A DNA stretch of 60,126 nt, taken from Frankia nepalensis (GTDB lineage: Bacteria; Actinomycetota; Actinomycetes; Frankiales; Frankiaceae). Below the pieces are notes generated by a model. It saw only the letters and a list, made by a program, of their open reading frames with translations, made no database searches and had not been told where the DNA came from. Of this stretch, positions 3,604-32,539 are shown piece by piece. Position 1 is the first letter of the stretch. Every line of letters starts with the position of its first letter. Location of the stretch: NCBI RefSeq assembly GCF_016786325.1, contig NZ_JADWYU010000144.1, positions 1-60,126 on the forward strand, written 5' to 3'. The position numbers were made by a program, and so were the translations under genes.

Positions 3604-3700
3604 ACAGGCGCCCGCTCGCTTTCCGGTGCCCACGCGCCCTTTGACCGGTTACCTTCGGTCTCAGGGGGCGATCTCGCCCGAATCGGCTGTTGGGGAGATC

Positions 3701-6700
3701 GTGTCAGTCTTCGTGCGGCTGCTCGGCCCTGTGGACGTGATGCTGGAAGACACCGTGCGGCCGGTGCCGGGCCTGCGCCGCAAGGCCGTCCTGGCCCGAC
3801 TGGCGCTGCGGCCCGGCGAGGTGGTCAGCACGGACCTGCTGATTGACGCGGTGTGGGACGGACAGCCCCCGGCGACGGCGGTGAACACTCTTCAGCGGCA
3901 TGTGTCCTACCTGCGGCGCATCCTCGGCGCGCCGGACGCGATCCGTGCCCAGGCGCCGGGCTACCTCCTCGGGGTCACCGCCACGGACCTGCGCCAGGCA
4001 GAGGATCTGATTGAGCGGGGCCGCGGAGCCGCGACACCAGCGGATGGCCTGGCCGCGCTGGAGCAGGCCCTTGAGCTCTGGCGAGGGCAACCCCTGATTG
4101 ATGTCGCCGCGCTCAGCTGGTTCTCTCACGAGGCCGACCGGCTGGAACGCATGCGGCGGGCCGCCGAGCAGGCGGCGGTGGAATGCCGCCTGGCGCTCGG
4201 TCAGCACGCCACGCTGATACCGGAGCTCGCGAAGCTGTGCGAGCAACGCCCCTTCGACGAGGACCAGCATGGCCAACTGATGGTCGCCCTCTACCGAGGT
4301 GGCAGGCAGGCGGAGGCGCTGTCGGTCTTCCACCAGCTGCGGGCACGGCTGATGGACGAACTCGGCATCGACCCGAGCGGGCCGATCCGTGACCTGCACG
4401 CGGCGATCCTGCGTCAGGATCCCGGCCTCGACCTCCCACCGGCGCCGGCCTCCCCCGGACCGCCGGTGAGCGGGTCCACCCACCTCATCGAGCGGGCCGA
4501 GGAGACCGCGCTCATCGACCAGGCGCTCAGCCGCGCACTCGACTCCCGAACCGGACGAATTCTGATCTTCGAGGGGCCCGCGGGAATCGGCAAGACGAGC
4601 CTGCTCGACCTGGCCAGGAAACGTGGCTCCGTTCTGGGGTACACCGTCGTGTCGGCGCGTGGGACGGATCTGGAGACCGACTACGGCTGGGGGTGCGCCC
4701 GGCAGCTCTTTCACCGCTACGGCGAGGCCGAAAGCGCCATCTCGCCGTTTCCGCCAGCCGACCAGGAGGCATCAGGCGGCGAGTACCAGCCGATCACGTC
4801 GCTCTTCTGGCTCGCGTGCGACCTGGCGTCGAGGAATCCCCTGATGATCGTCCTCGACGATCTGCAGTGGGCGGACACCCCATCGGTCCAGTTCCTGGCG
4901 TTCTTGGCCTCCCGCCTCGACGCCCTGCGTATCGTGATTGTCCTTGGGCTCAGACCCGGCTACGAACGCATCGGCAGGTTCGTCTCGTCCATCGCGGGAC
5001 TGCCTTACAGCAGCACGGCGGTGCCGCGCCCGCTCAGCCCGCAGGGCTGCGTCGAGCTTCTCGCCGAGGTGATCGATACGCCCGATCCGGAGCTCGCCGA
5101 CCGCTGTCAGGCCCTCACCCGCGGCAACCCCTTCCTGATGAAGGAACTGGCCCTGTCTCTGTCCGCGGCCGGCGGCGACCTGACGAAGGCGTTGCCCGAA
5201 GGCTCGCCCACCGTCCACCGCTTCGTGGCGCGGCAACTGCGCTACCTGCCCCCGTTCTCGGTCGAGGTGGCCCAGGCCCTCGCGGTGCTGGGCGACGGGA
5301 CCGGCAGCGACTGGTTGGCGACGATGACGAGGACCTCGGCTCAGGACGCGCTCCACGCGCTGCCACCACTGGTGTCGAGCCAGCTGGTCGTCGCCGAGGG
5401 CATTCCCGTGCGTTTCTCCTTCGGCCATCCGTTGATCCGCGACAGTGTCTACGAATCGATTCCCGCCGCGCAGCGAACCGAACTGCACCTGCGCGCGGCC
5501 CACGCGGCCATGGGAGCCCACGACCCGATCAGGGCCGCGACCCATCTGCTGCGCGTTCCGCCCGGCTACGGCACGTACGACCCCATACCGATCCTCGCCG
5601 AGGCGGCGGACATCAGCCTGGCGAAGGGCTCGGTGAACAGCGCGGTCACCTTCCTGCGCCGGATCATGGAGGCGGACCTGGGCGAGCGCCGGACCGAGAT
5701 GCTGACGCGCCTGGGCTCGGTCGAGGCGCTCGTGGACCCCAGTTCGGCCATCGAGCACCTGTCCGAGGCCCTCGCCCGGTCACCCGGCCCCGAAGCCCGC
5801 GCGCGGGTCGCGTGCGGGCTGGCCTCCACGCTCTGGATCGCCGGCCGACCCCGGGAGGCCGCCCGTGTCTGCCTGGCGGCGCTCGAACGCGACCGCGGCA
5901 TAGCGGACGACACCCGGCAGTTCCTGCGGGGCTGCCTGGCCATGGTGGCGTACGGAACGCGGCACGGCACCGACCTCATCGGGCTGATCGACACCTATCA
6001 GGACGAGACGACCGGCGCCTCGATCGGAGGAAGAGTCCTCGACGCGGGCATGGCGCTACACCACATGCATCAGAACCGTCGCGACGACGCGGAGCGCCGG
6101 GCTCTGAGCGCCCTCGCCGGCGACCGCCTGATCCACGAGCCGATGGCGGCCGGAGCGTCCTTGACCTGCGCCTGGTACGCGCTGGTGCCATGCGACTCAC
6201 CGGCTCTGCTGCCGTCCATCGAGAACGCGCTCGACCACAACCGCCGGTCGGGCTCGTTGAGCGGACTGTCCGGCGCCCTCTACCTCCGCTCGGAGGCGAT
6301 GTACGCCCAGGGCCACCTCAGGGACGCGCTCAGCGATGCCTGGGAGGCATGGGAGGTCAGTGACATAGCCGGCGTTCGGCTCGGCGGATCGTTCATCGCG
6401 AGTGTGCTTCTGCGGACCCTGGCCGCGCGCGGCGAGTTCGACCGGGCGGTGGAGATCCTGCGGCAGACGAAGGCCAGGCACGCCACCGGCGTCACTCCTG
6501 TGCTCTACGCCCCAGGAGAGATCGCCCTTCATCTCGCGATGGGCCAGACCCGGCGCGCGTTGGCCGCGGCGCTCGCGACACGCGACCAGTGCGCGGGACG
6601 CATCTTCAACCCGGTCGTCAGCGACTGGCGGGCTCCGCTGGTCCGCTGCTACAGCCTGCTCGGACGCGAGGACGAGGCACGGGCGACGGCCGAGGAACTG

Positions 6701-7195
6701 CTGTCCGCGTCGAGGGAGTGGGGCACGGCCCGTGCCGTGGGACGGGCGCTGCGCCATGCCGCCGTCGTCGAGTCCGGTACCCGTGAGCTCGAGCTGCTCG
6801 AGGAGTCCGTCCGGCTGCTGGACACCACCAAGGCGGCCCTCGAACAGGCCACCTCCCTGTACGCCTTCGGGAATGCCCTGAATCGTTGCGGCCATCCGGT
6901 GGAGGCGTGGCGCCGGCTGGGCGCGGCGTTCGATCTGGCCGAGTTCTGCGGCGCCCGCCTGCTGCGGGACGCGATCGGCTCCGCCCTGCGCCGCGCCGGC
7001 GAAGCGCCGCTGACACCGGCGGTGATGGCGGCTCTGTCCCCCACCGAGACGAAGGTGGCGGACCTCGCGGGCCGCGGCATGTCCGCCCGGGAGATCGCGG
7101 AGGAGCTGTACCTGACCGTGGAAACGGTGCGGCAACGGCTCGCGGTCATCGAACGCAAACGAGCGGGCACGAGCGGGCCGTCGGCTGCCCGATAG
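3701..7195 (+). CDS. Hybrid transcriptional activator: SARP + BTAD + AAA ATPase + TPR-like + LuxR HTH
   Basis: About 1164 residues. Residues 1-95 form an OmpR-type winged helix as in SARPs (VRLLGPV, RRKAVLARLAL, VNTLQRHVSYLRRIL), and 95-250 a BTAD helical region ending DELGIDPSG. An AAA module follows, with Walker A GPAGIGKTS near 292 and Walker B LMIVLDDLQWAD near 380. A long helical TPR-like region leads to a C-terminal LuxR helix-turn-helix (LSPTETKVADLAGRGMSARE onward, then LTVETVRQRL). SARPs activate antibiotic pathways by binding direct repeats at promoters; having DNA-binding domains at both ends is unusual. GTG 3701 follows GGGGAG, closely spaced; an upstream GTG at 3626 is possible. 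It converges on the PrnB-like gene set, its likely target. Confidence 0.85.
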   Translation: MSVFVRLLGPVDVMLEDTVRPVPGLRRKAVLARLALRPGEVVSTDLLIDAVWDGQPPATAVNTLQRHVSYLRRILGAPDAIRAQAPGYLLGVTATDLRQAEDLIERGRGAATPADGLAALEQALELWRGQPLIDVAALSWFSHEADRLERMRRAAEQAAVECRLALGQHATLIPELAKLCEQRPFDEDQHGQLMVALYRGGRQAEALSVFHQLRARLMDELGIDPSGPIRDLHAAILRQDPGLDLPPAPASPGPPVSGSTHLIERAEETALIDQALSRALDSRTGRILIFEGPAGIGKTSLLDLARKRGSVLGYTVVSARGTDLETDYGWGCARQLFHRYGEAESAISPFPPADQEASGGEYQPITSLFWLACDLASRNPLMIVLDDLQWADTPSVQFLAFLASRLDALRIVIVLGLRPGYERIGRFVSSIAGLPYSSTAVPRPLSPQGCVELLAEVIDTPDPELADRCQALTRGNPFLMKELALSLSAAGGDLTKALPEGSPTVHRFVARQLRYLPPFSVEVAQALAVLGDGTGSDWLATMTRTSAQDALHALPPLVSSQLVVAEGIPVRFSFGHPLIRDSVYESIPAAQRTELHLRAAHAAMGAHDPIRAATHLLRVPPGYGTYDPIPILAEAADISLAKGSVNSAVTFLRRIMEADLGERRTEMLTRLGSVEALVDPSSAIEHLSEALARSPGPEARARVACGLASTLWIAGRPREAARVCLAALERDRGIADDTRQFLRGCLAMVAYGTRHGTDLIGLIDTYQDETTGASIGGRVLDAGMALHHMHQNRRDDAERRALSALAGDRLIHEPMAAGASLTCAWYALVPCDSPALLPSIENALDHNRRSGSLSGLSGALYLRSEAMYAQGHLRDALSDAWEAWEVSDIAGVRLGGSFIASVLLRTLAARGEFDRAVEILRQTKARHATGVTPVLYAPGEIALHLAMGQTRRALAAALATRDQCAGRIFNPVVSDWRAPLVRCYSLLGREDEARATAEELLSASREWGTARAVGRALRHAAVVESGTRELELLEESVRLLDTTKAALEQATSLYAFGNALNRCGHPVEAWRRLGAAFDLAEFCGARLLRDAIGSALRRAGEAPLTPAVMAALSPTETKVADLAGRGMSAREIAEELYLTVETVRQRLAVIERKRAGTSGPSAAR

Positions 7196-7281
7196 GTCGG
7201 GCCACGCCCCGCCGGCGATTTCGAGTACCGGGTCCCCGGCTCCGGGCCTGAGCGGCCGCCCATAGACACGTCGAGGCGCGC

Positions 7282-7314
7282 CGACGGGTGCGGAAATCCT
7301 CGCCGCACCCGTCG
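7282..7314. terminator. Bidirectional hairpin between convergent genes
   Basis: A perfect 12-bp stem (CGACGGGTGCGG with its complement) closes a 9-nt loop between the stop of the regulator gene and the stop of the PrnB-like gene. There is no U-tract, as is common in high-GC actinobacteria. Its position between convergent genes supports a terminator. Confidence 0.65.
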
Positions 7315-7428
7315 ACTCAGGCCCGCGCGCAGGGCCGTGGCAACCCGTGGCTGGATGTCCCCATCGCCTCACCCGTGCCCGCCAGGAAGATCCCGCCGGT
7401 GCTTCTCCGACGCCGGGGGCGTCGACGG

Positions 7429-8538
7429 TCATCGTTCGCCCGTGATCTCGGTCCCAGTCGCCGTCGGGACCAGCGCGGCGTTGCGGCGGGTGAGCAGAAG
7501 GAGCTCGTCGAGCAGCGCGAGGCCGCCGCGATGGGCAACGAGCCCCGTATCCGGAAGCAGCTCAGGGGTGTAGGTCCGGCGCGCGATCGTCAGATGTTTT
7601 CCGCGGAAGACGACCAGGGCGCGCAGCGAGCGAGCAAGCTCCCTCGCGCTGGAGGTGACCGCGGCGGCGGATCGCGCGGGGGAGCCGCCGACCTCCGCCA
7701 GCGCGGCCGCGGTCCGGGTCACCAGGGAGGGCCGGTCGGCGAATTCCTCATAACAGCGCCTCCACTGGGGAAGCCCATACTGCGCCACGCCTCGCCAGTA
7801 GTCCCGATATCCGGATGTCGCGTGGTCGGACGCCCACAGCTGAAGATCGATCAGCGGTACCGGCACATGCGCCGCCGCCGGTCCGACGTAGCTGCCGTCG
7901 CCCACCCGTACCTTGCTCACGAAATACGGGCGCATGGTGAGCGCGAAGAACTCCGGCGTGACATTCGCCGTCACGGAGTCGATGGAGTCCTCGAGCGCCA
8001 GCAGTGTCTCGGCCAACTGCTGGGCGCCCTGGGCGAAGTCCGGTTGCCGCGGATCGAGTTCCGCCAGGCGCGAGCCGGCCTCGATGGCGGCCGCGAGCGC
8101 GGGCATCGGCTCCCGAACCGACGCGACGAGCGCGCGCTCCATGGGCTCACCGGTGAAGAGGCGCTCCCGTGCTCCGACCGGGTTCCACGTGCAGTAGTGA
8201 TGCACCGTGTCCCGCGGGATCATGCCGGTACGCGCGCCGAGCGCGAGCAGGACGGGCTCGGCTTCTCGGACCGTCTCGACCGGCTCCGCGCCGTGCCGGC
8301 GCAGCGAGCCGACGATCAAGCCGAGGTCCCGCATCGCGGCGAGTGACTCGGGCAGCGAGAACCCGGCGAGACGGTCGTCCGCCGGAAGCGAGTCACGCAG
8401 CAGGGATGCCAGCGCGTCGACGTCGGCGCGGGCGTTCATTTCCCACAGCCGAGGCAGACGCGAGTCGACGTCGAGCGGATCGAGAGCGGTCACCGCGGCG
8501 GGGCTGACGTCGAGCGTGACGATGTCCGTCGTGGTCAT
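7429..8538 (-). CDS. PrnB-like heme protein of the tryptophan/indoleamine dioxygenase superfamily
   Basis: 369 residues, all-helical in character. The key segment is FRGKHLTIARRTY (His near 315) followed by LVAHRGGLALLDELL. This parallels the proximal heme His motif FRxxHxxxxxR and the following Gly-rich helix start of TDO. Length and layout fit the PrnB family (monodechloroaminopyrrolnitrin synthase), whose founder rearranges 7-chlorotryptophan in pyrrolnitrin synthesis. The chlorinase and Rieske genes of that pathway are absent here. ATG 8538 has GAGGG 8 nt upstream. The gene is last in a minus-strand set with a cucumopine-synthase-like gene and a cupin, so an amino-acid-derived product, perhaps from tryptophan, is inferred. 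Confidence 0.7.
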   Translation of the reverse strand: MTTTDIVTLDVSPAAVTALDPLDVDSRLPRLWEMNARADVDALASLLRDSLPADDRLAGFSLPESLAAMRDLGLIVGSLRRHGAEPVETVREAEPVLLALGARTGMIPRDTVHHYCTWNPVGARERLFTGEPMERALVASVREPMPALAAAIEAGSRLAELDPRQPDFAQGAQQLAETLLALEDSIDSVTANVTPEFFALTMRPYFVSKVRVGDGSYVGPAAAHVPVPLIDLQLWASDHATSGYRDYWRGVAQYGLPQWRRCYEEFADRPSLVTRTAAALAEVGGSPARSAAAVTSSARELARSLRALVVFRGKHLTIARRTYTPELLPDTGLVAHRGGLALLDELLLLTRRNAALVPTATGTEITGER

Positions 8539-8630
8539 CGTCAGACCCTCGCGATCCCGACGGCGGGCGCGGACATCCCTGCCAGGGCCTGTTCGCCCAG
8601 GTCGTCGTACGGGTATTCGACTCCGTGCCG

Positions 8631-9539
8631 TCAGGGGAACAGGTGGAGGTTCCACGTGTTGAGGCAGTTGGCGTAGAGCGCGAGCGGCCACAGGACCCGG
8701 ATGAACTCGTCCTTCGTGCGTGTCTCCCGAACGGCCAGCAGTGTGCGTTCCGTGTAGTCCCGCAGCTTCTCGAGCCCGCAGTATCCGAGGAACTCCGCCG
8801 GCGTGTGGACGAAGTTCGGTGTGATCAGCTGAAGTGCCTGCAGGGTGAGGTCAGGACGCTGACCGAGCCGGATGAGGCCGTTCAGCGCGCAGTAACCGAG
8901 GGGGCGCGTCTCCCCGTTGACGAAGACCTGGGTACTGAAGTACTGGTCGCGCGACCCGGCCCGGCTCCTGATCCGCCCGGTATGAATGTCGAGCAGTTCC
9001 TCGGGCGGGTACAGCCAGATGCGTTCGGTCTCACCGATGATCTCCTCCACCAGTTCCTGGAGCCAGGCCCGTGAAAGCGCGGGGAGGCGGGGGAGCCGGC
9101 CGACCGGAGTGGGGTCGTCCTTTCGGTGGACCCGCACCTCGACGACCTCCTTCGAGGTGTAGGCGGACTCCCAGCAACGAGCGCCAGCCTCCTTCAGGAG
9201 GGCGATGTCCTCCGCGCGCACCCGTCCCACGGGTGCCGCCGGCAGATACTCGGAGAGCGGTCCGTACTTGATCCCCACGTGCTGGAGCTGGGAGAGGAAG
9301 ATTGTTCCGTCGGGCTCCTTCGTGCGGTCCGCGACCCGCATCGTCGGCTCCGTGTAGATGAGCTCCGGATGCGGGACCAGGTGATACAGATGGTCGCCGG
9401 AGACCAGAGCGTGGTTCTGGAGGCTGTTGTAGGGGAGCTTGGACCACAGCAGGTCGACGAGGTTGGGATTGCGCTCCTCGTCCAGGTCCGCGGTCACGCG
9501 GATGCCCGCGGGCCGCCACTCGATCTCTATCTGACGCAT
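8631..9539 (-). CDS. Cucumopine-synthase-like / Pictet-Spenglerase-type protein (DUF3830-like N-terminus)
   Basis: 302 residues. The first half resembles the cyclophilin-like fold of DUF3830 and cucumopine synthase (LVDLLWSKLPYNSLQNHALVSG shortened to LWSKLP..NHALVSG, then IFLSQLQHVGIKYGPLSEYLP). The second half is a helical domain (WLQELVEEIIGETERIWLYPPEEL; GYCALNGLIR; FLGYCGLEKLRDY). Cucumopine synthase joins histidine to 2-oxoglutarate in a Pictet-Spengler-type condensation, and bacterial relatives reportedly act on tryptophan-type amines. That this protein does so is inference. ATG 9539 has GGAAGG about 11 nt upstream. It lies between the cupin and PrnB-like genes, spaced 49 and 92 nt, as in one operon. 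Confidence 0.55.
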   Translation of the reverse strand: MRQIEIEWRPAGIRVTADLDEERNPNLVDLLWSKLPYNSLQNHALVSGDHLYHLVPHPELIYTEPTMRVADRTKEPDGTIFLSQLQHVGIKYGPLSEYLPAAPVGRVRAEDIALLKEAGARCWESAYTSKEVVEVRVHRKDDPTPVGRLPRLPALSRAWLQELVEEIIGETERIWLYPPEELLDIHTGRIRSRAGSRDQYFSTQVFVNGETRPLGYCALNGLIRLGQRPDLTLQALQLITPNFVHTPAEFLGYCGLEKLRDYTERTLLAVRETRTKDEFIRVLWPLALYANCLNTWNLHLFP

Positions 9540-9588
9540 CTGACACCGCACCTTCCGAGCGGGTGGCTCCCGCGCCGGCACCTAGTGA

Positions 9589-9990
9589 TCACGGGACGAG
9601 TGAGTCCAACTCCGGCATGAGGACGACGGTCTCGTCCGCCGTGGGTTCCGTGCGCGCGACGACCCCGACGATCGCGGCGGTCGCGCTGCGGTTCACCGAC
9701 ACGTGTGGACAGCCGGGCGGAACGTAGATGAGGTCTCCCGGGCCGACCTTCATGCAGTTCTCCAGCCGCTCGCCCCACCACATCTCGGCCTCGCCGCTGA
9801 CCACATAGAGAACCGACTCGTGCCCACCGTGCCGATGAGCCCGGGCGCGACCGCCGGGCGGGATGGTCACCTCGTGCATGCTGATACCCGTGGAACCGGC
9901 CGTTTCGCTCGTGATCCCCACCCGGTAGGGAAGGCCTCCCCTCGTCTCAAAGGTCGAGACGTCGCGAAACACCTTGCACTCGAGGGCCAC
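9589..9990 (-). CDS. Single-domain cupin
   Basis: 133 residues with both cupin motifs intact: HRHGGHE (His, His, Glu metal ligands) within GGRARAHRHGGHESVLYVV, and PGDLIYVPPGCPHVSVN (final His ligand). Such small cupins act as dioxygenases, isomerases or cyclisation helpers in biosynthetic operons; the reaction here is unknown. GTG 9990 is chosen because GGAGG stands 7 nt upstream, clearer than any upstream codon. It is the first fully intact gene of the minus-strand set, just downstream of a broken carrier-protein-like gene. Confidence 0.8.
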   Translation of the reverse strand: MALECKVFRDVSTFETRGGLPYRVGITSETAGSTGISMHEVTIPPGGRARAHRHGGHESVLYVVSGEAEMWWGERLENCMKVGPGDLIYVPPGCPHVSVNRSATAAIVGVVARTEPTADETVVLMPELDSLVP

Positions 9991-10038
9991 TGAAAAACCT
10001 CCACATGGAGCGGAACTGGCGGGGTGAGGGGCCACCGG

Positions 10039-10287
10039 TCATCGCGCGCGACTCCGGTATCGGCAATCGTGATGAAAGCTCGCGGGTTCCGGAATCCGTC
10101 GACCGCCCTCTCGTCGAACGGGATCTCCCGGTCGGTCGCCTCCTGGAGCACAATCGAGAAGTCCATGAAGCGCGGTGACTCGACTACCGGTTGTCGACCA
10201 GCTCCAGGTCGTCATCCAGCTCGACGTCGGCACGGGATCCCGCGGCCAGGACGCGACGTCGTCGCCCACGAGTTTCCGCCCTCGCAC
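10039..10287 (-). pseudogene. Acyl/peptidyl carrier protein-like gene broken by frameshifts
   Basis: Read on the minus strand, carrier-protein-like sequence runs through three frames. GTG 10287 opens with KLVGDDVASWPRDP. The next frame gives ADVELDDDLELVDNR, then a stop at 10184-10186. The third gives VESPRFMDFSIVLQEATDRE, IPFDERAVDGFRNPRAF and on. Together these resemble a phosphopantetheine-binding domain, with the attachment Ser in ESPRFMDF where DSLxF is usual. The two shifts are in the same direction, one base missing each time, and a third would restore the frame that stops at 10039, giving about 82 codons, the usual carrier length. It may be a decayed gene or a read error. It sits directly before the cupin. 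Confidence 0.45.
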
Positions 10288-10425: not shown

Positions 10426-10743
10426 GGCGCGGACGCCGCCGAACCGAACGAGTTTGAAAACACCAGGGAAACGAGGCGCATTCAACGCCCTCGTAACCCA
10501 ATATTTACCCGGCGTTGCGTCGACCAGCGTGACGACGAGGTCGGAGGCTGTTCCGGGCCTTGATCCCGGGCGTCCACCCGGCGGTGAGGCGCCGGGTAGA
10601 CGCCCGGGCCCGGCCAGCGCGACGAGAGCGCCCGCGACGGCGGTGAGCGCGCTGGCGCGCGCCGCGTGGGGATCGTCCGGGGCGCGGGGCCGCTCGGGAC
10701 GGGCGCGGGGAATGCGGCTGACCGGCGTGCCCTTGAGCTGAAG

Positions 10744-11763
10744 GTGAGTGGCGTTGAGGGTTCGCTTCCGTTGGCCGTGTTGGACTTCGTCGGGATCGAG
10801 CACGGCGAGAGCCCGAGCGCGGCGATCGCCGGCGCGGTGAGCATCGCCCAGTCCGTCGAGGCGGCCGGGTACCGGCGGTACTGGGTGTCCGAGCACCACA
10901 ACATGACCAGCCTGGCGTGCAGCGCCCCGGAGCTGCTGACCGCGCACGTCGGCGCGCACACGTCCCGGATCCGGGTCGGCGCCGCCGGGATCATGTTGCC
11001 CAACCACACGTCGTTGAAGGTCGCCGAGACGTTCCGGACGCTGCTGGCGATGTACCCAGGGCGGATCGACCTCGCGCTCGGCCGCGCGCCGGGCACCGAT
11101 CCGCTGACCGCGCATGTGCTGCGCCGAGGGGTGTCCACCGACCCGGGCGCGGAGTTCCCCGCGCAGGTCGGGGAGCTGCTGGCCTTCCTCGGGGACGGCT
11201 TCCCGGCCGGGCACCCCTACGCGCAGCTGGTGGCCGCTCCGGTGCTCGACGAGCGGCCCGAGCTGTTCGTGCTGGGATCGAGCCCCTACGGCCCACGGTT
11301 CGCCGCCGTCAACGGTCTGAGCGCGGTGTTCGCGCATCACATGAGTCCCGACCTCGCGTTCGAGGCGTTGCGCGCCTACCGGCGCGAGTTCACCGCCCGG
11401 AGCGAAGGCGCGGCGCCGTACTCGGCGATGTCCGTGCTGGCCTTCGCGAGCGCGGACGAGGAAGCGACGCTCGAGTTCGCGGCGGCGTGGACGCTGACCA
11501 TCCAGAACATCAGCCGCGGCAGACGTGAGCCGCTGCGACCGGAGGACGTCCGCGAGTTCGCCCGGTCGGCGCGGTTCCGCGCGGCCCGCCACGACGACGG
11601 CCGGATGGTCGTCGGCGAGCCGAAGGCCGTCGCCGAACGACTCCTGGAGATGAAGCGGGACGCCCAGGTCGACGAGATCGTCGTCGTCACCCCGAGTCTG
11701 GACCGCGATCGCCGCAAGGCCAGCTTCACCGCCCTGGCCGAAGCCTGGCGCCACACGATGTGA
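10744..11763 (+). CDS. Luciferase-like (LLM class) flavin-dependent oxidoreductase
   Basis: 339 residues from the GTG at 10744. The protein begins LPLAVLDFV, then AAGYRRYWVSEHHNM, GAAGIMLPNHTSLKVAETF and PGRIDLALGRAPG, the standard layout of the bacterial LLM group that includes MsnO8-type monooxygenases. It is a TIM-barrel enzyme using reduced flavin and probably oxygen. No strong ribosome-binding site marks the start, and an in-frame GTG at 10666 would add 26 unconserved residues. It diverges from the PrnB-like set across a shared upstream region, so it could belong to the same pathway or be an ordinary redox gene. Confidence 0.8.
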   Translation: MSGVEGSLPLAVLDFVGIEHGESPSAAIAGAVSIAQSVEAAGYRRYWVSEHHNMTSLACSAPELLTAHVGAHTSRIRVGAAGIMLPNHTSLKVAETFRTLLAMYPGRIDLALGRAPGTDPLTAHVLRRGVSTDPGAEFPAQVGELLAFLGDGFPAGHPYAQLVAAPVLDERPELFVLGSSPYGPRFAAVNGLSAVFAHHMSPDLAFEALRAYRREFTARSEGAAPYSAMSVLAFASADEEATLEFAAAWTLTIQNISRGRREPLRPEDVREFARSARFRAARHDDGRMVVGEPKAVAERLLEMKRDAQVDEIVVVTPSLDRDRRKASFTALAEAWRHTM

Positions 11764-16007: not shown

Positions 16008-16340
16008 GATCCCATGATCCGCGTCACCGACCGGCTCGGCCACCGGGTTTCCGCGCGGCACCGGGTCTACGCCGGTGGGCGTGTCCAGGCGCTGACGGCC
16101 AGCTTGCCGGTGGTGCCGAGGTCGACGTGGAGTGCCACGGCCACCGGATCGGCGCCCTGCTGGTCTCGCAACCTGAGCAGCGAGATCCCTGCTCTCGGAC
16201 GTCGGGTAAACGCCCCAAGACCGGGTCGGAGCAGGCACGCGGGTTTCGCGGGGTGCTTGTTTGGGCGCATCGTGAGCTCAGGTGAGCGATATTGGCTGTG
16301 CGACAGGCGTCACATCGGTCCGTGGTCAGGAGGTCCAGCG

Positions 16341-17594
16341 GTGACGGTCACCAACCAGGATCCGGACGCGGCGGCCGGCCCCGGGGCCGGTCCTGAGGCC
16401 GACGCGGAGGCCGACCGGGCCGGGATCTACTACGACCCCTATGACGCCGTCATCGACGCCGACCCGTATCCGGCCTGGCGGCGGCTGCGGGACGAGGCTC
16501 CGCTCTACTACAACGAGAAGTTCGACTTCTTCGCGCTGAGCCGGTTCGACGACGTCGAGGCGGGGCTCGCCGACTGGCGCACCTACCGGTCGGGGCGCGG
16601 CTCGGTGCTGGAGTTCATCAAGGCGGACCTGGACCTGCCGCCGGGCCTCATCCTGTTCGAGGACCCGCCGGCGCACACCGTGCACCGCGGCATCCTTTCC
16701 CGGGTCTTCACCCCGAAGAAGATGCTGGCCCTGGAGGCGAAGGTCCGGGAGTTCTGCGCGCGCAGCCTCGACCCGCTCGTCGGCGCGGGGCGGTTCGACT
16801 TCGTCACGGACCTGGGCGCGCCGATGCCGATGCGCACCATCGGCTACCTGCTGGGCATCCCGGAGTCCGACCAGGAGTCGATCCGCGACGGGATCGACGA
16901 GGGCCTGCGGCTGGAGGGCGACGGCACCGACCTGGCGCCGACGGTCAGCGACGGCTCCCAGTACGCCGAGTACATCGACTGGCGGGCCCGCCACCCGTCG
17001 GACGACCTGATGACCGAGCTGCTCACCACCGAGTTCGAGGACGAGACGGGGACGACGCGCACCCTCACCCGGTCGGAGATCCTGGTCTACGTGAACCTGC
17101 TGGCGGCGGCGGGCAACGAGACGACGACCCGGCTGATCGGCTGGGCCGGCAAGGCGCTCGCGGAGAACCCCGACCAGCGAGCGGAGCTCGTCGCCGACCC
17201 GGCGCTGATCCCGAACGCGGTCGAGGAGCTGCTGCGCTACGAGGCGCCGGCCCCCGCGCACGCCCGTTACGTCGCCCGCGACGTGGTGCACCACGGCCAG
17301 CCGGTCGCTGAGGGCAGTGTCATGGTCTTCCTCGTCGGCGCGGGCAACCGGGACGAGCGGCGCTACCCCGACCCGGACCGGTTCGACATCCACCGCGACG
17401 TCGGCCGGCACCTCACGTTCGGCTACGGCATCCACCACTGCCTCGGCGCCGCGCTCGCCCGCCTCGAGGGCCGCGTCGCCCTCGAGGAGGTGCTGCGCCG
17501 CTTTCCCACCTGGGAGGTCGACTGGCCGCGCGCGGTGCGCGCCCGCACGTCGGTGGTCCGCGGCTGGGAGTCGCTTCCGGTCCTCACCGGCTGA
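16341..17594 (+). CDS. Cytochrome P450 (copy 1)
   Basis: 417 residues, class I bacterial type. The I-helix has AAAGNETTTR, the K-helix EELLR (ExxR), and the heme loop FGYGIHHCLGAALAR with the Cys ligand. AGGAGG stands 7 nt before GTG 16341. The protein is closely related along its whole length to the P450 at 25512-26738; many blocks are identical, for example the stretch beginning FTPKKMLALE. No ferredoxin or reductase gene is adjacent, so electrons come from partners elsewhere. The substrate is unknown. Confidence 0.93.
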   Translation: MTVTNQDPDAAAGPGAGPEADAEADRAGIYYDPYDAVIDADPYPAWRRLRDEAPLYYNEKFDFFALSRFDDVEAGLADWRTYRSGRGSVLEFIKADLDLPPGLILFEDPPAHTVHRGILSRVFTPKKMLALEAKVREFCARSLDPLVGAGRFDFVTDLGAPMPMRTIGYLLGIPESDQESIRDGIDEGLRLEGDGTDLAPTVSDGSQYAEYIDWRARHPSDDLMTELLTTEFEDETGTTRTLTRSEILVYVNLLAAAGNETTTRLIGWAGKALAENPDQRAELVADPALIPNAVEELLRYEAPAPAHARYVARDVVHHGQPVAEGSVMVFLVGAGNRDERRYPDPDRFDIHRDVGRHLTFGYGIHHCLGAALARLEGRVALEEVLRRFPTWEVDWPRAVRARTSVVRGWESLPVLTG

Positions 17595-25511: not shown

Positions 25512-26738
25512 TCAGGAGGTGGGGATGGCGACGGGCAGCGTCTCCCAGCCGCGGACCGTGGAGGTGCGGGCCTGGACGGCGCCCGTCCAGTCGACGTCCC
25601 ACTCGGGGAAGCGCGCGAGGACCTCGTCGAGGGCGACGCGGCCCTCGAGGCGGGCGAGCGCGGCGCCGAGGCAGTGGTGGATGCCGTAGCCGAACGTGAG
25701 GTGCCGGCCGACGTCGCGGTGGATGTCGAACCGGTCCGGGTCGGGGTAGCGCCGCTCGTCACGGTTCCCGGAGCCGTTGAGGAACACCATGATGGATCCC
25801 TGGGGGACCGTCCGGCCGTGGTGGGTGACGTCGCGGGCGACCCAGCGGGCCTGCACGGGGGAGGGCGCCTCGTAGCGCAGCAGCTCCTCGATCGCGTTCG
25901 GGATCAGCGACCGGTCGGCGACGAGCTCGCGGCGCTGGTCCGGGTTCTCGGCGAGCACCTTCCCGGTCCAGCCGATCAGCCGGGTCGTGGTCTCGTTGCC
26001 CGCGCCGGCCAGCAGCATGATGTAGGTGAGGATCTCGGTGCGGGTCAGGGTGCGCCGCGTGCCCGTCTCGTCCTCGAACTCGGTCGTGAGCAGCTCGGTC
26101 ATCAGGTCGTCCGACGGGTGCTGGGCCCGCCAGTCGATGTAGTCGCCGTACATCTCGGCGCCGGCCGTGTAGTCGACCTCCGGGACGAGGTCGGTGCCGT
26201 CGCCCTCCAGCCGCAGGCCCTCGTCGATCCGGTCGCGGATCGCCTCCTGGTCGGACTCCGGGATCCCCAGCAGGTAGCCGATCGTGCGCATCGGCATCTG
26301 CGCGCCCAGGTCCCTGATGAAGTCGAACCGGCCGGAGCCGACCAGCGGGTCGAGGCTGCGGGCGCAGAACTCCCGGACCTTCGGCTCCAGCGCCAGCATC
26401 TTCTTCGGGGTGAAGACCTGAGAGAGGATCTTGCGGTGGACCGTGTGGACCGGTGGGTCCTCGAACAGGATGTTGCCGGGCGGCAGCGTGATGTTCGCCT
26501 TGATCAGCTCCAGGACGGAGCCCCGGCCCGACCGGTAGGTCTGCCAGTCGGCGAGCCCCGCCTCGACATCGTCGAACCGGCTGAGCGCGTAGAAGTCGAA
26601 CTTCTCGTTGTAGTAGAGCGGAGCCTCGTCCCGTAACCGCCGCCACGTCGGGTACGGGTCGACGTCGATCACCGCGTCGTACGGGTCGTAGTAGACCTCG
26701 CCACCGGTCGTCGTCGCGTTCTCGTTGGTGGTCGTCAC
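25512..26738 (-). CDS. Cytochrome P450 (copy 2)
   Basis: 408 residues with I-helix AGAGNETTTR, ExxR in EELLR, and heme loop FGYGIHHCLGAALAR. AGGAGG stands 6 nt before GTG 26738. It is a close paralogue of the P450 at 16341-17594, differing mainly in the N-terminus, a small insert (EVDYTAGAEMYG) and the K-L region. The opposite orientation and 8-kb distance suggest a duplication followed by rearrangement or independent gain. No redox partner gene is adjacent. Confidence 0.93.
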   Translation of the reverse strand: MTTTNENATTTGGEVYYDPYDAVIDVDPYPTWRRLRDEAPLYYNEKFDFYALSRFDDVEAGLADWQTYRSGRGSVLELIKANITLPPGNILFEDPPVHTVHRKILSQVFTPKKMLALEPKVREFCARSLDPLVGSGRFDFIRDLGAQMPMRTIGYLLGIPESDQEAIRDRIDEGLRLEGDGTDLVPEVDYTAGAEMYGDYIDWRAQHPSDDLMTELLTTEFEDETGTRRTLTRTEILTYIMLLAGAGNETTTRLIGWTGKVLAENPDQRRELVADRSLIPNAIEELLRYEAPSPVQARWVARDVTHHGRTVPQGSIMVFLNGSGNRDERRYPDPDRFDIHRDVGRHLTFGYGIHHCLGAALARLEGRVALDEVLARFPEWDVDWTGAVQARTSTVRGWETLPVAIPTS

Positions 26739-29602: not shown

Positions 29603-30558
29603 GTCGCCTCCAGGCCGCGACGCCAGGCGAGCGCGTGGCGTTCGAGGAGTCGGACGAGGGCGTCGGACAGCAGGCCGAGCAGGCCGTAGACGGCGAGGCC
29701 GACGACGATGACGTCGGTCTGGCCAAAGGTGCGGGCCTGGTCCATAAGGTAACCGATCCCGCTGGAGGCGTTGATCTGCTCGCTCACGACGAGCACCAGC
29801 CAGGAGACGGTGAGCGCGAACCGCAGGCCGACGAGGAACCCGGGCAGCGCCCCGGGCAGCACCACCCGGCGGATGACCGCGGCCCGGCTGAGCCGGACGG
29901 TGCGCGCCAGCTCCATGAACCGGGCGTCGACGCCGCGGATCGCCGCGAACGTGTTGATGTAGACCGGGAACGCGGTGCCCAGCGCGACCAGGAAGATCTT
30001 CACCTGCTCGCCGATGCCGAACCAGAGGATCGCCAGCGGCACGAGGCCCAGGATCGGCACCGCGCGCAGGATCTGCACCGGGGCGTCGACAAGGTCCTCG
30101 CCGAGCCGGAACAGCCCGGCGACGACGGCCAGCACGACCGCCGCGCCGACGCCGAGTACCAGGCCGAGCGCGACCCGGCGCAGCGAGACCAGCAGGTTCT
30201 CGTGCAGGGTGCCGTCGGCGGCCAGGTCGTAGCCGGTGTGCAGCACCGTCCAGGGCCCGGCGAGCACCGAGGAGTCGATCAGGCCCGCCGACGAGCCGAC
30301 CTGCCAGAGCGCGACCAGCAGCACCGGCCCGAGCAGCCGGCGCAGCCCGCGCGGGACCGGCCGGCGCGCCGGCCGGTCCGGGTCGGCGAGCGCGATCTCG
30401 ACACGTCCCGCCGGCCCGCCGCCGGGCGCGGCACGTCCGGGCTTGCCGGCCCGGTGCGGCTGCGTTCCGGGAGCCGCCTGGGCCCCGGGCGCGGCCGGGC
30501 CGCCGGAGCCGTCGAGGACGGCTCCGGCGCCCTGACCGTCGAAGACGGCGGTGGTCAC
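29599..30558 (-). CDS. Sulfonate/taurine-type ABC permease (SsuC/TauC-like)
   Basis: 319 residues. After a Gly/Ala/Pro-rich head of about 60 residues come six hydrophobic segments and the EAA-like loop MELARTVRLSRAAVIRRVVL followed by PGALPGF. GTG 30558 overlaps the TauD stop by 4 nt. It is part of a five-gene operon with binding protein, dioxygenase, ATPase and TetR. Confidence 0.9.
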   Translation of the reverse strand: MTTAVFDGQGAGAVLDGSGGPAAPGAQAAPGTQPHRAGKPGRAAPGGGPAGRVEIALADPDRPARRPVPRGLRRLLGPVLLVALWQVGSSAGLIDSSVLAGPWTVLHTGYDLAADGTLHENLLVSLRRVALGLVLGVGAAVVLAVVAGLFRLGEDLVDAPVQILRAVPILGLVPLAILWFGIGEQVKIFLVALGTAFPVYINTFAAIRGVDARFMELARTVRLSRAAVIRRVVLPGALPGFLVGLRFALTVSWLVLVVSEQINASSGIGYLMDQARTFGQTDVIVVGLAVYGLLGLLSDALVRLLERHALAWRRGLEAT

Positions 30559-31478
30559 GAGAACGAACCGCCCTCGAGGGCCTCGGACGGCTTGCCGTCG
30601 GGGCCGACCGGCACGTCGCCGGCCAGCGTGATCCGGTGCATCACGCGGTCGTAGCCCAGGTGGCCGTAGTCGGTCGGGACGAGGTGTGCCGTGGCGCGGT
30701 TGTCCCAGAAGGCGATGCTGTCGGGCTGCCAGCGGAACCGGACCGTGAAGGCGGGCGTGGCGAGGTGCTCGTAGAGCAGGTTCAGGATCGCCTTGCCCTC
30801 GGTGTTCGACAGCTCGACGATCCGCTTGGTGAAGTTCGGGTTGACGAACAGCGCCCGCTCGCCGGTCTCCGGGTGCACCCGGACCACCGGGTGGACGGTC
30901 TCGTACGGCGTGCTCGCGAACTGGGCGGCGAGCTTGTTGCCGTCGCCGTACTCGAGGTGCAACTGGTTGACGTGCACCGCGTGCAGGCCGTCGATGAACG
31001 TCCGGACCTCGGGGGAGAGCGTCTCGTAGGCGGTGACCAGGTTCGTCCACTGGGTGTCGCCGCCGTAGGGCGGGACGATCAGGCCGCGCAGGATCGAGCC
31101 CATCGGCGGGTTCAGGACGAACGTGACGTCGGTGTGCCACAGGCTCTTGACCCGGAAGCTGTCGCCCAGGCCCTGGTAGGCGCGGCTGTCCAGCGGGAAG
31201 ACCTCCGGGTGGCCCTCCAGCGTCGGCAGCGTCGGGTGGCCGGGGGTGACCTCGCCGAACAGCCGGCCGAACGCGATCTGCTGGGCCGGGGTGAGCGGCT
31301 GGTCCCGGAAGAAGACGACCTTCCACTTCAGCAGCGCCGCGCGGATCTCGGCGACCACGGCGGGCTCCAGCGGCGCCCGCAGGTCGACGCCGAAGATCTC
31401 CGCGCCGATGTGCCCGGACATCGGCCGCACGTCGAGCCCGACGGCCGACGGTGCGCTGGTTTCGGATGTGGTGGTCAC
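30555..31478 (-). CDS. tauD: TauD/TfdA-family 2-oxoglutarate-dependent dioxygenase
   Basis: 307 residues. The iron-binding WHTDVTF (His, Asp) and the distal YDRVMHRITL (His, Arg for 2-oxoglutarate) are intact, with WDNRATAH nearby. TauD splits taurine to sulfite and aminoacetaldehyde; relatives act on other sulfonates or aryloxyalkanoates. GTG 31478 overlaps the binding-protein stop by 4 nt and has GGAGG upstream. The gene lies inside the uptake operon, so imported sulfonate is probably oxidised at once. The exact substrate is not certain. Confidence 0.88.
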   Translation of the reverse strand: MTTTSETSAPSAVGLDVRPMSGHIGAEIFGVDLRAPLEPAVVAEIRAALLKWKVVFFRDQPLTPAQQIAFGRLFGEVTPGHPTLPTLEGHPEVFPLDSRAYQGLGDSFRVKSLWHTDVTFVLNPPMGSILRGLIVPPYGGDTQWTNLVTAYETLSPEVRTFIDGLHAVHVNQLHLEYGDGNKLAAQFASTPYETVHPVVRVHPETGERALFVNPNFTKRIVELSNTEGKAILNLLYEHLATPAFTVRFRWQPDSIAFWDNRATAHLVPTDYGHLGYDRVMHRITLAGDVPVGPDGKPSEALEGGSFS

Positions 31479-32539
31479 TTCGTGGCCTCCTCGACCGCTG
31501 AGTTGTAACGGGTGTCGAAAAGCTTCGACATGTCGAGCTTCTTGGGGATGACGCCGCTGTCCTTGAACAGGTCGGCGAGTTTCTGCGCGCCCTCGACGAC
31601 GGAGCCGTCGATCGGCGTGAACGTCGCCACGCCCTGTTTCGTCAGCAGCAGCTTCCCGATCTCGGCCGGCTGGTTCTGCTTCTCGACGTACTGCTTCTGG
31701 ACGAATTCGTCGACGTGGGTGTCGCGCCAGGTGAGCCCCCTGACCCATCGCTTCACGAAGTCGCCGATCGCCGCGGCCTTCGCCGGGTCGTCGAGCACGT
31801 CGCGCGTGGTGATCAGGTACTGGACGAACGGCGCGACCGAGCCGCCGCTGACGACCAGGCGCGCCGTCGGGTTGTCCTTCAGGTAGGGGCTCGCGAGCGG
31901 CTCGACGAGCACGCCGGCGTCCGCGTCCCCGCGGGACAGGGCGCTGCCGATGTCGGTCGGCAGCAGGTTGACCTGCTCGACGTCGCGCTGCCCCAGGCCC
32001 ACGCTGTCGAGCGCCCGCAGCGCGAACGCCTGCAGGATCGTGCCGGTGGAGTACGCGACCTTCTTGCCCTTCAGGTCGGCGAGGTCGTCGATGTCGCTGC
32101 CCGGGCGGGTGACCAGCGTCATCTGGTCGCCGGACGACTTCCAGGAGGCGACGACGGCGAGGTCCTGGCCGGAGGCGGCGGCGAGCACCGGCGGGGTGTC
32201 CGCGACGAAGCCGATGTCGACGGCCTTCGCGCGAAACGCCTCGAGCAGCAGCGGGCCGGCCGCGAACGTCGACCAGTCGACCGAGTACGGCAGGTCGGTG
32301 CCCTGCCCGGACAGCTCGATGGGTCCCCGCAGGGTGTCGCCCTGGTCTCCGACGCGCAGCTTGGTGCCCGCGGGAACGGCGGTCGGATACCCGGTGACGG
32401 CCGCGGCCGACGGGGCCGGTGTGCCGTCGTCGCCGCCGGAGCCGCAGGCGGCGAGCCCGGCGACGGCTATCAGCACGGAAAGGACCGGAACGAGGGCGCG
32501 GCGCGGCCGCGTTCGGCCGGCCCGGCGAGCAGGCAGCAC
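31475..32539 (-). CDS. Lipoprotein substrate-binding protein of the sulfonate-type ABC importer
   Basis: 354 residues. The lipoprotein signal ends at VAGLAACGSGG, with Cys as the likely lipidated residue. The body matches the SsuA/TauA-like type II binding fold (DIGFVADTPPVLAAA, LKGKKVAYSTGTILQAFALR, DADAGVLVEPLASPYLK). GTG 32539 has GAGGAG 8 nt upstream. It is the first gene of the operon, and the large upstream gap probably carries its promoter. Confidence 0.88.
   Translation of the reverse strand: MLPARRAGRTRPRRALVPVLSVLIAVAGLAACGSGGDDGTPAPSAAAVTGYPTAVPAGTKLRVGDQGDTLRGPIELSGQGTDLPYSVDWSTFAAGPLLLEAFRAKAVDIGFVADTPPVLAAASGQDLAVVASWKSSGDQMTLVTRPGSDIDDLADLKGKKVAYSTGTILQAFALRALDSVGLGQRDVEQVNLLPTDIGSALSRGDADAGVLVEPLASPYLKDNPTARLVVSGGSVAPFVQYLITTRDVLDDPAKAAAIGDFVKRWVRGLTWRDTHVDEFVQKQYVEKQNQPAEIGKLLLTKQGVATFTPIDGSVVEGAQKLADLFKDSGVIPKKLDMSKLFDTRYNSAVEEATK

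Follow-up and report, generated by a model that had tools for sequence, protein, structure and literature searches.

We analysed a 60,126-nucleotide (nt) stretch of a Frankia nepalensis contig (the window, to which all positions refer), from a draft genome of 10.7 Mb in 398 contigs. Its minus strand carries, in order of transcription, a broken carrier-protein gene (10222-10053), a cupin gene (9990-9589), a gene for a condensing enzyme (9539-8631) and a gene for a PrnB-family heme protein (8538-7429). Our preferred reading, which we consider probable though far from settled, is that these are the parts of a small β-carboline gene set of mosaic make-up, which turned up a single time in the sequences searched and is probably in decay; it is perhaps a leftover and not a working pathway. 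The side-by-side arrangement of an McbB-type gene and a PrnB-like gene is real, and it was found nowhere else in the sequences searched. The set appears mosaic in that the nearest PrnB relatives and the McbB relatives each keep other partners. An earlier note on this DNA had proposed a new alkaloid pathway; because the pair has been seen once and carries lesions, that pathway is reduced to a possibility.

An McbB-type enzyme beside a PrnB-like heme protein

The condensing enzyme (302 amino acids; minus strand, 8631-9539) matches the Pfam profile PF18631, Cucumopine_C, with an E-value of 2.5e-45. The earlier note had called it cucumopine-synthase-like, which is correct at the level of the Pfam profile, but by identity, tree and residues McbB is nearer. 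The closest solved relative is the marinacarboline Pictet-Spenglerase McbB (PDB 3x27, 4.6e-120), with 60% identity over the whole domain; the title of that entry is 'Structure of McbB in complex with tryptophan', and the available excerpt of one study uses it as McbB of Marinactinospora thermotolerans (PMC11015028). An AlphaFold2 model of the window enzyme, built with 16 relatives (mean predicted local distance difference test score 88.1), aligned with 3x27 at Z 42.2 and a root-mean-square deviation of 1.5 over 301 residues, with the same domain order. The next structural matches were to KslB (Z 20.6-22.7 over 129-137 residues), in which the domain order is reversed.

We collected 39 relatives by scanning an 84,980-species collection, and added a plasmid record, L005. 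The scan relied on two peptide patterns, and relatives without those patterns can be missed. The resulting tree has 44 rows, 41 of them McbB-type (window included) and three cucumopine-type; two sequences, L104 and L105, were shortened in extraction. The window enzyme groups with those of Marinactinospora, Actinoalloteichus and Nocardiopsis (93/81, not starred), although its exact position is unsure, the branch being long and in no starred set. The three cucumopine-type rows are separate (100/100), and their identity to the window enzyme is 31-35%. Both R72 and H87 are present in all 41 McbB-type rows and in none of the three cucumopine-type rows, whereas E97 is kept in 44/44 rows; we take these three residues to be catalytic. 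Judged by sequence, the condensing enzyme is McbB-type and not a cucumopine synthase, so that its substrate is very probably tryptophan and its product a β-carboline rather than an imidazole opine. McbB itself uses tryptophan and oxaloacetaldehyde to build the skeleton of the marinacarbolines (PMC7024544).

The heme protein (369 amino acids; minus strand, 7429-8538) matches PF08933 at 8.7e-40 (137.1 bits, against a cut-off of 27) and PDB 2v7i at 7.9e-54. Its His315, the histidine of an FRGKH motif, stands in the heme-ligand column, which is His in 35 of 36 aligned rows; the remaining row, L075, has lost its frame there. The earlier note had named both the family and this histidine, and both assignments hold. 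More broadly, profile searches placed the two enzymes inside PF08933 and Cucumopine_C; at 1e-4, NCBIfam named neither of them. The PrnB tree has 34 rows, L073 and L075 having been removed beforehand; L052 had no match to the window PrnB. The smallest starred set that holds the window protein consists of the window, L047, L070 and L077 (97/92; long branches), and FRGKH is exclusive to these four of the 36 rows. Identity of the window protein is 54% to L047, a plasmid protein of Streptomyces sp. NBC_01717, 42-49% to proteins of genus g3, 36-37% to pyrrolnitrin-type rows, 32% to 9dfg and 31% to another Streptomyces plasmid protein, L048. We take genus g3, as a guess, to be Streptomyces; compared by DNA with plasmid records, it matched only Nonomuraea and Arthrobacter (76-77%).

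A GS[GS]G motif is present in 33 of the 36 PrnB rows and missing from the window protein; the other rows that lack it are one typed fragment and the frame-broken L075. We infer from its place after the histidine that the motif is part of the substrate loop or adjoins it. In FbPrnB, the loop closing on the substrate contributes a serine that holds the carboxylate, and the PrnB reaction includes C-N cleavage, C-N formation and decarboxylation (both from PMC11791213).

The two remaining pieces of the set are small. The cupin protein (133 amino acids; minus strand, 9589-9990) matches PF07883 at 2.3e-14, as the earlier note had it. It shares 46-54% identity with 15 listed among 161 matching plasmid records, mostly from Rhizobiales; three neighbourhoods of these relatives were examined, and each was different. 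The fourth piece, the carrier-protein relic, is described with the damage below.

Partners of the two enzymes in other genomes

Conservation of the genes together had been set beforehand as a test of the earlier note's proposal, and it was not found. We examined 40 McbB neighbourhoods, with flanks of up to 10-12 kb, many of them ended by contig ends, and neither the window PrnB nor the window cupin had a match in any of them (0/40; E 0.01). Reciprocally, the window McbB had no match in any of 27 PrnB neighbourhoods over 9 kb (E 0.001). Neighbours were counted by tblastn; McbB of L010 and L032 and PrnB of L096 had escaped gene calling. No report of an McbB/PrnB pair appeared in the literature searched, among the matches listed.

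Two genomes that hold both genes were found, with the genes on different contigs in each. A PF08933 gene occurs in one of 39 McbB genomes, on another contig than McbB, and groups with pyrrolnitrin PrnB. That genome is Burkholderia multivorans WS-FJ9, with an McbB-type gene (L009, 59%) and, on the separate contig, the pyrrolnitrin-type PrnB (L082); L009 is accompanied by a zinc dehydrogenase instead of the usual McbB partners. Similarly, one of 48 PrnB-bearing genomes of genus g3 has a Cucumopine_C gene, which is McbB-type (49%) and lies on another contig, beside a flavin adenine dinucleotide (FAD)-dependent oxidase homologue. Surveys with the genome itself counted gave 1 and 2 matches across the phylum (396 genomes per family) and 2 and 2 matches across the order (35 genomes), where the match in G397 aligns as two pieces in swapped order. 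At the level of the class, 393 genomes searched for the window PrnB gave 8 matches, again counting the genome itself.

McbB-type genes occur with several different partner sets. Homologues of McbA and McbC are both present in L006, L007, L008 and L010 (tblastn; Pfam on L007). An FAD-dependent oxidase homologue is found in 35 of the 40 McbB stretches and a cytochrome P450 homologue in 34 (tblastn; Pfam on representatives). L005 and L011-L044, mostly from Nonomuraea, are McbB-type genes among the stretches with these oxidase and P450 homologues. It is possible that the Nonomuraea-type sets match β-carbolines such as the nonocarbolines, which the excerpt available of PMC7148486 describes from a Nonomuraea strain.

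The partners of the nearest PrnB relatives are a ketosynthase, ketosynthase III and carrier protein in one case, a methyltransferase in another and an aminotransferase in a third. On the Streptomyces sp. NBC_01717 plasmid (L047:17908-23441), the PrnB-like gene is followed by genes for an FAD monooxygenase, a ketosynthase, a ketosynthase III-like protein and a carrier protein, and this stretch is possibly a PrnB-polyketide hybrid cluster. In genome G636 (L106:9282-10312), the near PrnB relative L070 has genes for an O-methyltransferase and a class III aminotransferase next to it; because L070 matches in two frames, it may be broken too. In the same-family genome G415 (L050:2034-9554), FAD-monooxygenase, HpaB, MFS, NmrA and ketosynthase-type genes are followed, close to the contig end, by a PrnB-like fragment (51% over 83 residues), and the frame beside this fragment is transposase-like by eye only. 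Within genus g3, a PrnB-family gene is present in 48 of 392 genomes. In a conserved PrnB cluster of that genus (L084-L101), glgP-, HpaB-, MFS-, FAD-monooxygenase- and PrnB-type genes occur together in 15 of 20 stretches, and 14 of the 20, with HpaB and PrnB present, have in addition a glgE-type gene at the opposite side (tblastn; Pfam on L098 only). The product of this cluster could not be traced in the literature searched.

Apparent damage to the set and rival explanations

By comparison with its relatives, the gene set looks damaged in three places: the carrier-protein gene is split, the McbB-type gene ends prematurely, at a conserved tryptophan, and the PrnB-like protein has lost its conserved motif. 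The earlier note had counted three intact genes, which the second and third of these lesions contradict.

The carrier relic (minus strand, 10053-10222) runs through two frames, with ELDDDLELVDNR in one and a piece starting VVESPRF in the other. Its halves align next to each other on an intact carrier-like protein in the same-family genome G419, one with residues 21-32 and the other with 33-65 (E 0.003); in a search of 35 genomes, such a protein was found in that genome alone. Shuffled sequences reached the scores of the two halves in 1/2000 and 0/2000 cases; a second carrier protein that we tried had no likeness to them (1104/2000 and 364/2000). The frame break falls a few residues ahead of the phosphopantetheine attachment serine. 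Neither frame of the window pieces, nor their read-through, had a carrier match in Pfam, and a PDB search with the pieces gave no match. The G419 protein likewise has no Pfam match at 0.001; in the PDB it matches peptidyl and D-alanyl carrier proteins, the best of them at 1.8e-6. This one comparison, together with the PDB matches of the G419 protein, suggests that the piece is a carrier-protein relic, as the earlier note had proposed. The gene for the G419 protein (L113:1453-1698; L117) clusters with genes for an AurF-type N-oxygenase, a nitronate monooxygenase, a class III aminotransferase, a ring dioxygenase and a sugar-kinase-like protein.

The McbB-type gene ends right after the residues FP, at a point where tryptophan follows in all 41 other rows whose end could be read (40 McbB-type and L103). 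This tryptophan and the short tail beyond the McbB domain are conserved, though not taken as defining, and both are absent from the window gene. Past the stop, another 29 codons can be read in frame (minus strand, 8541-8630), up to a point 2 nt ahead of the PrnB ATG. The stretch looks like the former tail of the gene: its RHGVEYPY resembles DHGKEYPY of Nocardiopsis L010, and its guanine-plus-cytosine (GC) content by codon position, 0.77/0.50/0.83, is like that of the genes.

If the set is a decaying β-carboline set, its McbB-type enzyme would condense L-tryptophan with an oxo-aldehyde or a 2-oxo acid to give a 1-substituted β-carboline-3-carboxylate. With less confidence, the heme enzyme might oxidise tryptophan or the β-carboline, and the cupin might tailor a substrate or product. 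The lesions suggest that a carrier-dependent branch has been lost and that the remaining enzymes are, maybe, inactive or changed. Several observations weigh against decay. Both enzymes could still work, because their frames are open and coding-like and the missing McbB tail amounts to only about 12 residues in 3x27. Errors of sequencing or assembly in a draft of 398 contigs could account for the stop and the frame break, and the change in the PrnB-like protein could reflect altered function and not decay. Moreover, the pair is seen in one genome only, which precludes a measure of selection.

We considered whether the McbB-type and PrnB-like genes are instead unrelated remnants of different clusters, accidental neighbours that each act, or acted, alone. 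The absence of either partner from the other's neighbourhoods is as expected from this, both families combine with several partners, and the PrnB fragment of G415 sits in a different cluster, with a ketosynthase. However, the 2-nt gap between the McbB read-through and the PrnB ATG is the spacing of coupled genes, and four pieces lie on one strand in little space; we regard an accidental neighbourhood as unlikely, if still deserving some weight. The histidine-based reading, in which the enzyme is a cucumopine synthase of an opine-like or imidazole alkaloid set, takes its support from the Pfam name of the C-terminal domain. It is countered by the 100/100 separation in the tree, by the other residues at positions 72 and 87, by the much lower identity to cucumopine-type rows than to McbB and by the lack of an adjoining histidine-utilisation gene, unlike in L103 and L104. 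We rejected it on tree, residues and identity, and give it next to no probability. Of the indole- or imidazole-derived alkaloid that the earlier note had envisaged, the indole half thus stands with the McbB-type assignment, and the imidazole half does not.

A more ambitious explanation is a working two-enzyme alkaloid pathway, in which a β-carboline formed by the McbB-type enzyme would be opened at its indole N-C bond by the PrnB-like enzyme, to yield a streptonigrin-like aminophenyl-pyridine. In its favour, the genes lie next to each other in one direction, with the McbB read-through ending just short of the PrnB start. The streptonigrin route runs via the Pictet-Spenglerase StnK2 and lavendamycin (from the parts available of PMC7955054 and PMC4742848), and among the references seen in PMC4742848 are titles on oxidative β-carboline cleavage and on N-C bond cleavage. 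With this precedent for oxidative β-carboline cleavage, the reading is chemically sensible. Against it, no second genome with the genes side by side was found among those searched, and GS[GS]G, a motif probably within the substrate loop or next to it, is missing from the window PrnB. To our knowledge, moreover, no enzyme of the PrnB family uses a β-carboline as substrate, and the literature consulted names none. We consider such a working pathway rather improbable.

Its specific form gets only a slim chance from us: the PrnB-like enzyme would cleave the β-carboline of the adjacent enzyme at the indole N-C bond, so that two enzymatic steps lead from tryptophan to a 4-(2-aminophenyl)pyridine carboxylate, and the lost loop motif would reflect the larger, ring-closed substrate. 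If this were true, a streptonigrin-like ring system would be made by a PrnB-family heme enzyme. The mechanism of PrnB is unsolved, the usual heme intermediates being reported as not competent (PMC11791213); the ring-closed tryptophan derivative expected from the neighbouring enzyme is a concrete new substrate candidate for work on PrnB. A decaying mosaic β-carboline set remains our preferred explanation.

Surrounding genes and comparison with known systems

On the plus strand, a regulator of 1189 amino acids (3626-7195) is convergent, tail to tail, with the minus-strand set. The earlier note had begun the locus at 3,701, and the regulator thus starts slightly outside it; it had also described the regulator as facing the set, which is right only in the tail-to-tail sense. 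The protein is SARP-type, as that note had proposed, with a BTAD match at 1.4e-35 beside a winged-helix DNA-binding domain (Trans_reg_C, 3.2e-9, Pfam) and an ATPase/TPR middle (AAA_16, 1e-14). The proposed LuxR end is weak, its GerE match (E 0.0066, 16.5 bits) lying below the Pfam cut-off of 23.5. Consistent with the earlier statement that the usual pyrrolnitrin genes are absent, a Pfam scan covering 11 reading frames between 2050 and 13507 gave no match to a halogenase or a Rieske protein. All long frames are open, and their GC content by codon position is normal and coding-like. A luciferase-like monooxygenase gene (MsnO8 family; 10666-11763) is divergent from the carrier relic and gives no sign of membership in the set. 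Further along the window are two P450 genes and a TauD-type dioxygenase gene (16014-17594, 25512-26738, 30555-31748).

Among known systems, the cucumopine synthase of Rhizobium rhizogenes plasmids shares with the window condensing enzyme the Pfam C-terminal domain and E97; identity is 30-31%, the clades are separate, and R72 and H87 are found on the window side only. The bacterial Pictet-Spenglerase KslB (9ns6, 9k0a) shares the fold of window residues 1-140, at 30-31% identity and the Z scores given above, but the matched part sits at the KslB C-terminus, in the opposite domain order. With McbB (3x27) the window enzyme has in common the 60% identity over the domain, the predicted fold, the domain order and all three of R72, H87 and E97; it differs in that the window gene stops at the tryptophan that follows the domain. 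The partners also differ: in the marinacarboline mcbABC set they are an adenosine monophosphate (AMP) ligase and a pyridoxal phosphate-dependent decarboxylase, whereas the window has a cupin gene and a PrnB-like gene, with no mcbA or mcbC adjoining.

The heme protein shares family and heme-ligand histidine with PrnB of pyrrolnitrin biosynthesis (2v7i, 9dfg), but it is 37% and 32% identical to these over the aligned fragments, belongs to another subclade and lacks GS[GS]G. In pyrrolnitrin prnABCD, prnB is accompanied by genes for two halogenases and a Rieske oxygenase (annotated in L049), which have no such match near the window set. The nearest relatives of the window heme protein are those in the PrnB clusters of L047, G585 and G636. 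Their partners are an FAD monooxygenase, ketosynthases and a carrier protein, a methyltransferase, or an aminotransferase, with no McbB in the stretches examined; the PrnB proteins themselves are 44-54% identical to the window protein and share with it the motifs FRGKH and AA[AS]H.

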